A DNA stretch of 36,281 bases from Candidatus Poseidoniaceae archaeon (GTDB lineage: Archaea; Thermoplasmatota; Poseidoniia; Poseidoniales; Poseidoniaceae), in contig CALHIR010000008.1 of NCBI GenBank assembly GCA_938030705.1, positions 1 to 36,281 of the forward strand. Direction: 5' to 3'. A program made the position numbers and the translations under genes. Every line of letters begins with the position of its first letter. Position 1 is the first letter of the stretch. The notes under the pieces are model-generated. The model was not told where the DNA came from and made no database searches. It saw only the letters and a program-made list of their open reading frames with translations. Below are positions 31,729 to 35,825 of this stretch, piece by piece.

Positions 31729-31813
31729 GGCTAGATTCCAGCCCATCTGCACTAAGTAGGGCTGTTTTCCGCCTATCTGCCCCAACCTTCCAACCATGCT
31801 TGTCATACAGGAG

Positions 31814-31819
31814 TTTATT
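31814..31819 (+). promoter_or_regulatory. TATA-like element TTTATT
   Basis: TTTATT is centred 28 bases before ATG 31844, pointing to a leaderless start for the deacetylase gene rather than the in-frame ATG at 31796. Confidence 0.4.
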
Positions 31820-31843
31820 GACGCCACAGCCCACCGCGGAAAC

Positions 31844-32788
31844 ATGACCCCGTCTCGGTTGTTTGGGATGTGGTATCACCCCCTCTACACCGACGGCATT
31901 CACCCCGAGGCGCGCTTTCCTCGGGACCGCTACCAACTCCTTCTCGACCGCTTTCAAGCGTCCGGGATGAATCAAGCGATGCACATCACCCGCCCGCAAC
32001 CCATCGCAAAGGCGCTGCTGCTGCTCGCTCATGACAGGGACTACGTCGACCGGTTTCTCGCCGGCGACCTCACGGACAAGGAAGAGAAACGTATCGGGTT
32101 GACGCCATGGACGCCGGCGATGATTGAACGCACGCTTGTCCTCATGGGTGGCGCCGTGGAAGCAACTGAACACGCCGTCCATACTGGCGGTTTTTCAGGC
32201 AACATGGCAGGAGGCACCCACCACGCACATCGAGATTTTGGATCGGGCTACTGCGTGTTCAACGACTTGGCTGTATGCGCGCTGCACGCGGTAGAGAACC
32301 TCGGCGTCAAACGCGTGGCGATATTGGATTTGGACGTACATCAGGGCGACGGGACAGCCACCATTCTCGCTCATGAGCCTCGGGTGTGCACCGTATCAGT
32401 CCACTGCCAAACGAACTTTCCATTTCGCAAAGCCCGCAGCGACCACGATCTCCCCCTCCCCCCGGATGCCGACGATGCGACCTTCCTTGAAACAGTGAAC
32501 AAGGCGTTGAACATCTGTCTCGATTTTAACCCCGATTTGCTGTTGTTTCAAGCGGGTGTGGACGGTTTGGCCGCCGATGCCCTCGGCAAGTTGTCCGTCT
32601 CCAGAGAAGGTATGAAAACTCGTAATCAGATGGTGTTTGACGCAGCACGCCACCACCAAATCCCCACTGTAATTTTCATGGGAGGCGGGTATGCAAAACC
32701 GATTGAGAGGAGCCTGGATGCGTTTTATGATCTCTTCACCGATGCAGCACAGTGGAACCAGAGTGGGGCTCGTTCAAATTCGATTTGA
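31844..32788 (+). CDS. Histone deacetylase-family hydrolase
   Basis: The 314-residue protein keeps every landmark of the zinc-dependent HDAC/acetoin-utilisation family, close to class IV (HDAC11-like) enzymes. Numbered from ATG 31796, these are the His pair 142-143 in GGTHHAHRDFGSGYCVFND, metal ligands Asp180 and His182 in LDLDVHQGDG, the third ligand Asp256 in QAGVDGLAADALG, and the catalytic Tyr299 in GGGYAKP. Family members deacylate lysines, acetylpolyamines or other acyl amides. With MC1 and an H1-like protein in the same window a chromatin target is tempting, but nothing shows it. Start 31844 is preferred from the TATA-like element; 31796 and 31868 are alternatives. Confidence 0.9.
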   Translation: MTPSRLFGMWYHPLYTDGIHPEARFPRDRYQLLLDRFQASGMNQAMHITRPQPIAKALLLLAHDRDYVDRFLAGDLTDKEEKRIGLTPWTPAMIERTLVLMGGAVEATEHAVHTGGFSGNMAGGTHHAHRDFGSGYCVFNDLAVCALHAVENLGVKRVAILDLDVHQGDGTATILAHEPRVCTVSVHCQTNFPFRKARSDHDLPLPPDADDATFLETVNKALNICLDFNPDLLLFQAGVDGLAADALGKLSVSREGMKTRNQMVFDAARHHQIPTVIFMGGGYAKPIERSLDAFYDLFTDAAQWNQSGARSNSI

Positions 32789-32883: not shown

Positions 32884-33231
32884 TCATTCTGAAGCACCCT
32901 CGAAATCATTGCTTCCAACCCACTCAAAAACAGATTTGAGGATTGGGCCCAACGTTCTGCCTTTTTCTGACAAATCATACTCAACTCTTGCTGGAACTTC
33001 AGCAAAAACTTCACGGGTGACGAGCCCTTGTCTGATCATCTCATCCAAGCGACGACTCAACGTGGTTGCAGTAATGCCGATTTCTCGCCTGAGATGGTTA
33101 AATCTCACGGGCCCATCATTGTGGGACATGAAAAACAGCATGTGGAGAACATAGGACTTCCCCAGGAGTTCGATGAATTCTCGGCCTTGAGTTTGCAAGC
33201 AAAGGGGTTGCTGCTGGGCGGGTGGTTGCAT
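32884..33231 (-). CDS. HxlR-family transcriptional regulator
   Basis: The 115-residue protein has the HxlR winged-helix pattern: GKSYVLHMLFFMSHNDGPVR (helix 1 and turn), FNHLRREIGITATTLSRRLD as the recognition region, then MIRQGLVTREVFAEVPARVE forming the wing and YDLSEKGRTLGPILKSVFEW as the dimer helix. A Cys near the N-terminus (position 11) could act as a redox sensor as in some HxlR proteins, but this is speculative. A TATA box 24 bases upstream implies a leaderless transcript. It diverges from the CDGSH-like gene over a 125-base gap, a layout typical of a regulator controlling its neighbour. Confidence 0.88.
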   Translation of the reverse strand: MQPPAQQQPLCLQTQGREFIELLGKSYVLHMLFFMSHNDGPVRFNHLRREIGITATTLSRRLDEMIRQGLVTREVFAEVPARVEYDLSEKGRTLGPILKSVFEWVGSNDFEGASE

Positions 33232-33250
33232 GGTGTTACCAAGTCGCTGA

Positions 33251-33260
33251 AATATATCAA
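33251..33260 (-). promoter_or_regulatory. TATA box of the HxlR gene
   Basis: TTGATATATT on the minus strand is centred 24 bases before ATG 33231. On the plus strand, CTTAAT near 33312 and AGGAGG at 33341-33346 (10 bases before ATG 33357) serve the divergent gene. Confidence 0.6.
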
Positions 33261-33356
33261 ACCTCCAGTTTCAACTCGGATACCATGGTTTCCATTCCGG
33301 GACTTTTTGTGCTTAATACGGGCGAACAATCCCCGTTCCAAGGAGGGATGAAACTC

Positions 33357-33476
33357 ATGAGTAAATGTGGATGTGGACGATCACCAACCGGAATGTGCAA
33401 AGGTTGGCACGGTCTTTCAGAAGAAGAATACGAAAAGAAACTAGCAGAATTCAAGTCAGAAAACAAGGAAGAATGA
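33357..33476 (+). CDS. CDGSH-like Cys-rich microprotein
   Basis: The 39-residue product begins MSKCGCGRSPTGMCKGWH and ends in a charged helix (SEEEYEKKLAEFKSENKEE). The C-x-C-x2-S-x4-C-x-G-x-H spacing resembles the 2Fe-2S-binding CDGSH motif (C-x-C-x2-S/T-x3-P-x-C-D-G-S-H) but is one residue shorter between Ser and the third Cys, and it has Lys-Gly-Trp-His in place of Asp-Gly-Ser-His. Iron-sulfur or zinc binding is plausible but unproven. AGGAGG at 33341-33346 supports ATG 33357; ATG 33348 sits too close. The stop overlaps ATG 33473 of the next frame as ATGA. Confidence 0.72.
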   Translation: MSKCGCGRSPTGMCKGWHGLSEEEYEKKLAEFKSENKEE

Positions 33477-33478
33477 AG

Positions 33479-33727
33479 ATGTCCAAAAATTGGAACACCA
33501 TTCTTCGTTGGATCCACCTGATTTTCGGGATGATGATTTCTGCTTATTTCGCTCGAATCACCTTCACCGGGAACACTGACGTCTGGGACGATGATCCTTG
33601 GGTCACAATGTTCGTTGGACAAGCTGTGTTAGCGATTGTTTTCTGGACTGGAATCATCAAGTGGCAACTGCCTCGTATCAAGAAATGGAATCGAAACCGA
33701 AAGAAAGCCAAAGCAGCGGAAAATTGA
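33479..33727 (+). CDS. Small two-TM membrane protein
   Basis: The 82-residue protein has two membrane segments (ILRWIHLIFGMMISAYFARI and MFVGQAVLAIVFWTGIIKW) joined by a short acidic loop (TDVWDDDPW), and ends in a strongly basic tail. AGGAAG 7 bases upstream supports ATG 33479; ATG 33473 overlaps the preceding stop. It is almost certainly co-translated with the CDGSH-like microprotein. Function unknown. Confidence 0.75.
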   Translation: MSKNWNTILRWIHLIFGMMISAYFARITFTGNTDVWDDDPWVTMFVGQAVLAIVFWTGIIKWQLPRIKKWNRNRKKAKAAEN

Positions 33728-33860: not shown

Positions 33861-35537
33861 TCACAATGTCAACTTACGTTGAAATCTTGTTGCTAAGATG
33901 ATTGCGAAAATCAACAACCAGGATTCGAATCCTGGCAAGGATGCATTTGATTCACTGTTCTCATCACTCACTTCCTCCCAAAAAGATGGGTCGTTGGGAT
34001 ACACGTCTGAATTGTCCCCAACGCCATCCCCGTCCGAGTCAACTGTCTCGGTTGCATCGGTTGGGAAATCATCGAAATCATCCGCAATGCCATCCCCGTC
34101 CGTGTCAAGGTACGGAACCACGATTTCAAAAGAATCTTCATCGGTCAAGATTTTTTGATCTTGAGCATCATAGACATAAGCTTGCACATAAACAGTGTAC
34201 GACATCGTGATGTTTCCGCGCAGAGACTCAACGCTTAACCCGAGGGAGAAGGGGCTTTGCACTGACAACCCATCCGAACGATTCCATAGATGAATTAACC
34301 GAAGATCGTATTTCTCAACAGCGGATGCCTCAAAGGATGAATTTTCGAATGCCACCTCAATATAGGTCTCTTCCTGAGTGGAAGAAAGGATTGTCCCGTT
34401 GATGAAAAGGAAATCATCCTCCATCACCTCGGCTTCCACCGGTATGTCCAACGAAAACGTTGCTTCGTATTGAGGCTCGGGTTCTTCCCATGCATCCATC
34501 ACAGAATCGTAGGTCCAAGCGCCGTCCCACTGGCAGATTCCATTTTCATCAAGGATGAACTCTCCACCGGCTTCAATCGCTGCTTCGGGAGCAACGAGGC
34601 CCTGACATGCAGCAAGGGTGAATTCAAACCAATGGATGGTGGTCCACGCTTCATCAGGATACGTACCTTCGTATGTTTTGATGTAAACATACTGATTGTT
34701 TGATGTGTTGCTGTACATCTCCGCAACGGAGAGGGTGAGTGAAAACGCATCACCGTCGCTTAATGCGTCTGATCTCGCCCACAAACTCTCCACGGCAAGG
34801 TTGTACTTTGCGACAGCTGGGGCTGAGAAATCCTCTTCAAAAAAGGCTACCTCAACGTAAACTTCTCCGTTTTCAGAACCAGAAACCAGTGAGCCGTTCA
34901 CAAAAATGGTATCACTGGTAACCGTTGTGCCGTTCAGTGTCATGTCAAACTGGAACTCGGGTTCTTGGTCACCAAACCCGAGGGGCACAACCACGAAGTA
35001 CATGCGGAATTTTTCACTGAATTTTCCCGCTGTATCGTAAGTGATCAACTCAATCCGGATTTGGTTCTCCGTGGTACCGGTTGAGTCAACGGTCACGTTG
35101 GCGAAGCTGTAGGACCACAAGCCACCGCTGGCTTCGGATTGCGTGAAGGTGTGGCCGTCAAGGTCGAATGAATCGTCGCCGTACGGGGCATCAAACAGGA
35201 CCTTCCATTCGTAAGTCGCAATACCTGCATCGGTTTCGTTGGCATGGTCCTCGTCATACGAGTCACTCGCATCAAAGTTGACGATGGTCTCCCCATCATC
35301 TCCCAAAGTTACTCTGTAAACGTTCCATTCGGTGTTGGAAACCGTCTTTGTTCCTATTTGCACGATGGCCCCCTCTTCCTCAGCAACCGTAGCGTTCGCA
35401 ACAGGGGGAAATTCGTCATCTTGAGCATCGTGAGAAAATCGGATTTGGTGAGACTCGTCCAGTGTTGAGTTTTGAGAAAATTCAGAACAGGCTGTTGAAA
35501 ATAAAAGCAAGGCGAACAACACGGCAAGTTTCTGCAT
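33861..35537 (-). CDS. Surface protein: PKD-like, duplicated domain, TSP3 repeats, PGF-CTERM-like end
   Basis: From ATG 35537 the 558-residue product has a signal sequence with a Cys (MQKLAVLFALLLFSTACSEF) resembling a lipobox, though Ser rather than Leu is at -3. A PKD-like domain follows (about 60-175), then two copies of a roughly 100-residue beta domain: VYVEVAFFEEDFSAPAVAKY in the first aligns with TYIEVAFENSSFEASAVEKY in the second. Next are two calcium-binding thrombospondin-type-3 repeats (DTDGDGIADD, DSDGDGVGDNSD), and the C-terminus LPGFESWLLIFAIILATRFQ matches the PGF-CTERM archaeosortase signal. It would be exported and either lipid-anchored or sortase-processed. An AT-rich TATA region lies 29 bases upstream. 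Confidence 0.83.
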   Translation of the reverse strand: MQKLAVLFALLLFSTACSEFSQNSTLDESHQIRFSHDAQDDEFPPVANATVAEEEGAIVQIGTKTVSNTEWNVYRVTLGDDGETIVNFDASDSYDEDHANETDAGIATYEWKVLFDAPYGDDSFDLDGHTFTQSEASGGLWSYSFANVTVDSTGTTENQIRIELITYDTAGKFSEKFRMYFVVVPLGFGDQEPEFQFDMTLNGTTVTSDTIFVNGSLVSGSENGEVYVEVAFFEEDFSAPAVAKYNLAVESLWARSDALSDGDAFSLTLSVAEMYSNTSNNQYVYIKTYEGTYPDEAWTTIHWFEFTLAACQGLVAPEAAIEAGGEFILDENGICQWDGAWTYDSVMDAWEEPEPQYEATFSLDIPVEAEVMEDDFLFINGTILSSTQEETYIEVAFENSSFEASAVEKYDLRLIHLWNRSDGLSVQSPFSLGLSVESLRGNITMSYTVYVQAYVYDAQDQKILTDEDSFEIVVPYLDTDGDGIADDFDDFPTDATETVDSDGDGVGDNSDVYPNDPSFWEEVSDENSESNASLPGFESWLLIFAIILATRFQRKLTL

Positions 35538-35825
35538 GGTTAACCTATAAAATTCAACTAATTTATTTATTCTCAAAACTTGTCAATGATTTCAATAATC
35601 TGTTTTCAGGCCAATCAAGGTATTTCTGCTCAATCCCTTGTAGATGAGCTCACTATACAGAATGGGTTGCAGTCCGTCCTATACAACCCTAGGGATAAAC
35701 ACGACCCACTGCGACCCCTCGTGTACAAATCGATTGTGGACATGGGTGGTTCACATGATCCTTCGTGGATAGAAGTAAACCACTTATCCACTTTTGTTAG
35801 TCAAATCCCTATTTAACCAGATTAT
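35538..35825. other. Intergenic region with a TATA box and a doubtful small frame
   Basis: An AT-rich ATAAATAAAT element at about 35561-35571 is the probable promoter for the surface-protein gene at 33861-35537. A plus-strand frame from ATG 35586 to TAA near 35816 (76 codons) is open, and its translation looks moderately protein-like (LVDELTIQNGLQSVLYN), but I see no ribosome site or known motif. It may be a chance frame or a gene remnant. Confidence 0.4.
35561..35571 (-). promoter_or_regulatory. TATA box of the surface-protein gene
   Basis: AATAAATAAAT on the minus strand is centred 29 bases before ATG 35537, giving a near-leaderless start and supporting that ATG over 35576. Confidence 0.55.

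Follow-up and report, generated by a model that had tools for sequence, protein, structure and literature searches.

Described systems that resemble the locus

The described proteins that the microprotein treated here most resembles are those of the CDGSH/NEET group, with which it shares a C-x-C-G-x-S start, a C-x-G-x-H end and a set of three Cys and one His, some of its viral relatives even ending in a literal CDGSH. It differs from them in a loop that is one residue shorter between its second and third Cys, in mostly carrying W or L for the S of that ending, in its form (a chain of 39 aa for which a C-terminal helix is predicted), and in not being matched by the Pfam model of the CDGSH group. 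Known NEET proteins have a beta-cap domain, which the 39-aa chain lacks, and zinc can also be held by three Cys and one His. Proteins of the DUF1289 family (PF06945) are likewise small and Cys-rich, with a W and a short helix; they differ in Cys spacing and score lower in profile comparison. DoxX and glutathionyl-hydroquinone reductase (YqjG) are grouped as bacterial operons. The same two neighbours occur with some of the bacterial microprotein genes, the microprotein being, compared with the DoxX-YqjG operons, an added part; no DoxX gene was found beside 45 archaeal copies.

The regulator that faces the microprotein gene belongs to the same domain family (HxlR, MarR/DUF24) as YodB, HypR and QsrR and has in common with them an N-terminal Cys and a divergent position over a dyad. 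It differs from them in being archaeal, in standing beside a microprotein-TM operon and, usually, in having no second Cys. PMC6943732 has the B. subtilis DUF24 regulators HypR, YodB and CatR sensing HOCl, quinones and diamide by way of a conserved N-terminal Cys, and describes B. subtilis HxlR as an aldehyde-linked regulator; quinone adducts form at Cys6 of YodB according to PMC8063818. As regards viruses, the words virus and phage do not occur in the main text of PMC5859297. Searches of a literature in which few subscription journals are covered brought up no mention of the family, by title or start of abstract, for CDGSH with phage or mitoNEET with bacteriophage, and found the literal motif CGCGRSPTG in no paper.

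The three genes

The window (the whole stretch of DNA that was analysed, 36,281 nucleotides) belongs to a Candidatus Poseidoniaceae assembly of 2.0 Mb that is 90% complete. The initial annotation placed an HxlR gene divergently from genes for a microprotein and a two-TM protein, and that is how the three ORFs lie. The HxlR/DUF24-family regulator (115 aa; Pfam HxlR, E=2.1e-18, 66.4 bits against a cut-off of 20.8) is encoded on the minus strand at 32884..33231. On the plus strand are the genes for the short-loop CDGSH-like microprotein (33357..33476; 39 aa) and for the small two-TM protein (33473..33727; 84 aa, with two hydrophobic stretches), the start of the second overlapping the stop codon of the first in an ATGA. 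As regards the translational coupling that had been proposed, an in-frame ATG overlaps the microprotein stop in 13 of 29 loci, the window among them; in the remaining loci the TM gene must begin at another point, which by eye is a few bases 3' of that stop.

The putative metal-ligand core of the microprotein, CGCGRSPTGMCKGWH (33366..33410, plus strand), contains C4, C6, C14 and H18. The gene is preceded by a Shine-Dalgarno-like AAGGAGGG (33340..33347, plus strand) and a TATA-like CTTAATA (33312..33318, plus strand), the candidate microprotein promoter; of the 35 archaeal intergenic regions compared, 28 have GGAG in the 25 nt that precede the ATG and 29 have TTAATA in the preceding 60 nt. An alternative in-frame ATG lies at 33348, and since 20 archaeal copies, the window's included, have a second ATG no more than 12 codons upstream, 33357 is the likely but not the certain start; the proteins of relatives begin MSK or MxK at its position. 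Two further genes of the window lie nearby. Upstream of the HxlR gene, 31796-32788 encodes a histone-deacetylase-family protein (PF00850, 7.2e-59), and 33861-35576 (minus strand) encodes a 571-aa protein with a lipoprotein-like start and, by eye, D-x-D-x-D-G repeats near its end, for which no Pfam family scores above cut-off.

The regulator and an operator-like dyad

The window regulator has a single Cys, at residue 11. An N-terminal PxC[LI] is present in all 28 aligned archaeal HxlR proteins (from 35 loci); its Cys is the sole one in 24 of them and aligns with the N-terminal Cys of the bacterial HxlR protein at L100. By position, the archaeal Cys would be the equivalent of YodB Cys6. The best solved-structure match of the window regulator is B. 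subtilis YybR, which we take to be HypR, with HxlR, QsrR and YodB lower among 15 matches, in PDB alignments that, as shown, do not cover the Cys. Because the aldehyde-linked B. subtilis HxlR ranks between YybR and QsrR, the class of inducers could extend to aldehydes. The best NCBIfam matches, the redox regulators RrpA and RrpB, stay far below cut-off (50.1 and 40.1 bits, where 185 and 175 are required). The earlier suggestion that the regulator is possibly redox-sensing gains support from the conserved N-terminal Cys (28/28) and from kinship that includes HypR, QsrR and YodB; the Suf, NifU-like, DoxX and glutathionyl-hydroquinone reductase genes beside some other copies, described below, also point to redox function.

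Between the two divergent genes of the window lies an operator-like imperfect dyad, AGTTTC-AACTCG-GATACC (33267..33284, unstranded), at two mismatches from the consensus AGTATC-N6-GATACT. That consensus, which was derived from the same 35 intergenic regions on which it was scored, is found with at most two mismatches in 31 of them and with at most three in 34, compared with 0.7% of mononucleotide-shuffled regions at the two-mismatch level; other spacings from 0 to 14 are found in 0-3 of the 35. The one failure is L057, which has a tandem duplication of the microprotein gene (L057:4001-4242) and in which, by eye, a dyad with a single mismatch precedes the first of the two copies. Exact matches to the dyad were found in three of 38 family genomes (a reversed control pattern in five of 38), and of their three places two, including that at L055, are promoters of the microprotein. 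To the extent that exact sites are a guide, the regulator thus looks local in its action.

Neighbourhoods in archaea

A scan of 84,980 species genomes yielded 198 relatives of the microprotein. The contexts described here are those of the window locus and the best 80 of the 198 relatives, making 45 archaeal and 36 bacterial loci; in this set, the closest relatives are on Poseidonia or Poseidoniaceae contigs, and we accordingly take the window for DNA of Marine Group II archaea. A conserved neighbourhood, the lack of which, together with a lack of metal binding, the initial annotation would have counted as refutation, does exist in archaea: profile searches find a divergent upstream HxlR gene at 35 of the 45 loci and a downstream TM gene as well at 29, all 29 with HxlR, these counts not being independent, since many of the archaeal loci are closely related. 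An HxlR gene was not found at nine archaeal loci that have at least 400 bases of flank, and at L055 the flank is too short to tell. The whole home genome has four HxlR matches. Within the same archaeal family, 28 of 145 genomes match the microprotein at E<=0.01, or 27 after removal of one false match, and three carry two copies. (The match in G142, where the first two Cys are missing and a stop interrupts the sequence, was dropped, as was that at L002, for like reasons.)

The two-TM protein had been presented as part of the module and proves to be optional: it was not found at 16 of the 45 archaeal copies, and in other Poseidoniales members of its family occur by themselves. It is predicted to form a helical hairpin (pLDDT 81.2, pTM 0.45), and the DoxX Pfam model does not match the window protein. 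Of the 29 TM loci, 27 have RW[IV]HLxFG, and the other two, L045 and L068, retain its His-Leu. The family is present in 48 of 145 same-family genomes, and at none of 14 TM loci taken from genomes whose copies are diverged in sequence or lie away from a microprotein, some of them at contig ends, was an HxlR gene found at E<=1e-3; the TM proteins are thus a family of Poseidoniales, and part of that family has entered the microprotein operon. A divergent TM paralogue family (L377-L390, WSAEVDKFVSTTFVFLVMWTGLAKWP...) lies away from HxlR in Poseidoniales, and L045 has such a form beside its microprotein.

A second type of archaeal neighbourhood is seen at five of the 45 copies, downstream of which clustering places sufC, sufB, sufD and sufS. 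In one suf set that was compared with NCBIfam models, SufC and SufB exceed their cut-offs; SufD and SufS score too low, SufS as a sequence truncated where the locus ends. A NifU-like gene (PF01106, 27.8 bits, the cut-off being 27) is divergent from four of these five copies. Copies of the HxlR-TM type and of the Suf type coexist in three genomes (L033/L034, L036/L042 and L058/L041).

Bacterial and viral relatives

Among the best 80 of the 198 relatives, bacterial copies come from surface-ocean groups of several phyla: from SAR86, Luminiphilus, Halieaceae, Woeseiaceae, Rhodobacteraceae, Puniceispirillum and Rickettsiales, and further ones from Verrucomicrobia, Cryomorphaceae, beta proteobacterium KB13 and others; beyond these the microprotein is rare in the genomes covered, and within the SAR86 class the one positive genome of 369 is the query genome itself. 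An upstream HxlR gene was not found at 30 of the 32 bacterial loci with enough flank. DoxX genes are downstream of the microprotein at L078 and L108 and upstream of it at L100 and L106, there with an HxlR gene divergent from DoxX; at L082, microprotein and DoxX share one reading frame, an apparent in-frame fusion. YqjG-type glutathione transferase genes are downstream of three of the four SAR86 loci (L079, L081 and L094) and of L078 and L082, and another is divergent from the archaeal L072. The protein at L079 has YqjG and a glutathionyl-hydroquinone reductase among its PDB matches, and the other YqjG-type genes fall in the same cluster. LysR-cluster genes face L078, L108 and L091. DoxX and YqjG-type neighbours are a minority at the 36 bacterial loci, and the rest are varied, among the matches listed. 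An in-frame join of microprotein and cytochrome b561 at L091 (named by eye) is not counted as a fusion; it is in a low-coverage MAG and looks frameshifted.

In uncultured viral contigs, the motif was confirmed in at least 577 stretches of the 600 listed. Neighbours were counted at 75 of 80 viral loci, L121, L142, L152, L158 and L179 being left out as lacking the motif by pattern, and no redox operon was recognised in the surroundings of viral copies. The exonuclease of one viral contig is nearest to that of 280-kb phages such as PA5oct (53%). In cultured phages, tblastn with five microprotein queries gave nothing at E<=1, short queries being weak, and a single search extended to E 10 gave one chance-level match (E=8). 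Since a positive control with a phage gene from the neighbourhood matched 442 records in the same collection, the family seems to be absent from that collection at tblastn sensitivity. Plasmids gave four chance-level matches in one microprotein search and none in another. Of the small redox module as originally conceived, the conserved neighbourhood is there and the redox angle finds support; the microprotein is not confined to such a module, its family being wide, with many viral members and other neighbours.

Other features of the viral loci deserve mention. An omega/Rpb6-like protein cluster is present at 15 of the 75 viral loci analysed, and the one protein scanned, of 83 aa at L131, matches the RNA polymerase omega/Rpb6 family (PF01192, 5.5e-12). 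The phage protein encoded at L275:7439-9013, of 525 aa, contains an XkdF-type protease domain and bears CACGLSATGMCDGSHNKK at its C-terminal end. The GLH variants of the motif at L269, L313, L309, L355 and L273 have Lys/Pro/Ala-rich, histone-H1-like tails, with a weak HC2 match for L269.

Conservation of the microprotein and its possible kinship with CDGSH

Minority letters fall at codon positions 1, 2 and 3 in the numbers 118, 61 and 914 in 194 distinct core sequences (protein beginning CGCGRSPTG, and only cores with RS at core positions 5-6), and pS is 0.71 against a pN of 0.13 over the first 33 codons of ten archaeal genes. By these comparisons of sequence, the core is under strong purifying selection and the motif is not there by chance. 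Invariance in the alignments is partly selected: the scan was seeded with CGCGRSPTG or a helix pattern, which bears on the archaeal alignment A1 (19 sequences) and on the wider A2 (64 archaeal and bacterial), whose rows were also cut by a strict motif, and in A4 (98 of 162 listed sequences) restriction to RS at core positions 5-6 makes R8 and S9 invariant by choice. A looser pattern, C.CG.S.TG.C.G.H, gives 82 matches in 81 cellular loci (the window locus and the best 80 of the 198 relatives), and all 82 read CGCGRSPTGxCxGWH; the ligand residues are fixed in that pattern, and longer-loop members lie outside what the gathering of the family could catch. A freer viral scan, with just C-x-C-G-x3-T-G-x-C-x-G-x-H fixed and R8 and S9 free, gave 121 matches in at least 120 stretches. 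Among these 121 listed matches, the free positions are R in 120, S in 121 and P in 113; the residue before the His is W in 96, L in 18, S in 6 and M in 1, and five (L275, L291, L305, L312 and L322) have a literal CDGSH with the same short loop.

L20, E23 and E24 are conserved at the predicted C-terminal helix, which occupies residues 22-37 of an AlphaFold2 model (mean pLDDT 90.5, pTM 0.59). Foldseek with this 39-aa model found no PDB match, and a PDB sequence search with the microprotein profile returned two chance-level matches and no CDGSH entry.

That the motif is one residue short of CDGSH, as had been noticed in the window, is borne out: the window has C-x-C-x7-C-x3-H, against C-x-C-x8-C-x3-H in 42 collected CDGSH domains, which were chosen by that spacing. 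The zf-CDGSH spacing is likewise not that of any of the 82 cellular matches, in a family gathered by the shorter one. In hhalign comparisons of microprotein and CDGSH profiles, all four ligands align with one gap (probability 60 and 76, the latter with a score of 24.0). None of 100 full column shuffles scores as well; three of 100 shuffles that keep Cys and His in place do. The Pfam model zf-CDGSH (PF09360) does not match the window protein or its place in the home genome and, at E<=0.1, reaches two of 98 family members (best E 0.025). The profile match and the relatives with a literal CDGSH, set against the failure of zf-CDGSH to match the window protein, lead us to call the microprotein CDGSH-like and not a member; the link to CDGSH is supported, not proven. 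The family is apparently unnamed, lying outside Pfam and NCBIfam with no convincing model: the 98 members give only weak Pfam matches (best E 0.0089) and a single NCBIfam match (E 0.081), and Pfam DUF1289 does not match the window protein. In PHROGs, the unannotated phrog_27090 is matched by one of the 98 (E 0.00034), cellular members match 16 families at E<=1 (best 0.0091) and ten viral proteins match none.

A proposed redox module and its rivals

From gene content, conservation, the dyad and the families of the neighbours, we infer a metal, a cluster type, repression, an inducer, a membrane partnership and a physiological role, in the following form. HxlR, sitting on the dyad between the two promoters, would keep the microprotein-TM operon repressed; quinones, other electrophiles or disulfide stress would modify its single N-terminal Cys and so free the promoter. 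The shortened loop of the one-domain microprotein would hold a redox-active metal, most likely [2Fe-2S], by three Cys and one His. The protein would work at the membrane, next to its two-TM partner here and to DoxX in some bacteria, and would handle electrons or clusters when the quinone or thiol pool is oxidised, or serve in Fe-S care. To this stress-induced redox module, an HxlR-repressed, Cys-released operon of a CDGSH-like, most likely [2Fe-2S], microprotein and a TM protein, we give an even chance.

The ligand set itself could also suit a mononuclear zinc knuckle, in a structural or adaptor protein that binds a macromolecule through its C-terminal helix, or in a phage adaptor for host takeover or assembly. 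Three Cys and one His, the helix with its conserved L20, E23 and E24, the Lys/Pro/Ala-rich tails of some viral versions and the placement of one version at the end of the XkdF-type phage protein all speak for zinc, which is a possible reading but a rather doubtful one in view of the relatives with literal CDGSH endings and of the quinone-reductase, Suf and NifU-like genes that some copies have near them. The Suf genes in particular argue for iron-sulfur over zinc, and do not prove it. It is unlikely that the resemblance to CDGSH is convergence and that the microprotein goes back to a different small Cys protein, for example DUF1289. In favour of this reading are the three of 100 ligand-preserving shuffles that reach the CDGSH score. 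DUF1289 is weakly matched by 11 of 64 members (best E 0.011) and by six of 98, and one profile alignment lines up two of the cysteines; another has no Cys in the aligned part, and the DUF1289 profile score is 19.7 (probability 38, elsewhere 19-20) against the 24.0 (probability 76) of CDGSH, of which the latter was the one controlled by shuffles, so that DUF1289 would rank below CDGSH as kin.

A toxin-antitoxin or defence cassette, with the small membrane protein as toxin, is suggested by a TM protein encoded in an operon with its own regulator and by patchy distribution (27 of 145 family genomes). We hold it to be very improbable: neither microprotein nor TM protein has a PADLOC match at E<=0.01, HxlR matches just the helix-turn-helix part of the CARF/Csa3 models there, the TM relatives lie away from HxlR in 14 of 14 loci, and the 16 archaeal copies already referred to do without the TM gene.

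Wider meaning

If the redox module exists as proposed, it would provide a first testable function for microproteins that are shared by archaea, bacteria and many viral contigs. A broader and distinctly more speculative conjecture is that the CDGSH-like proteins with a short loop form a branch carried by viruses, essentially without a name in present family libraries, which is common among uncultured large tailed phages and has spread between archaea and bacteria of the surface ocean. This branch may be a minimal, transferable iron-sulfur redox element that phages use on the redox or Fe-S metabolism of their hosts, and that cells have placed under redox-sensing regulators or before a Suf operon. 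We know of no smaller CDGSH-like unit than the microprotein would be, and the family would be a natural design on which to test how little protein can hold a 3Cys-1His cluster. The archaeal locus, with one Cys and one dyad, would offer a concrete and testable redox switch in uncultured ocean archaea.
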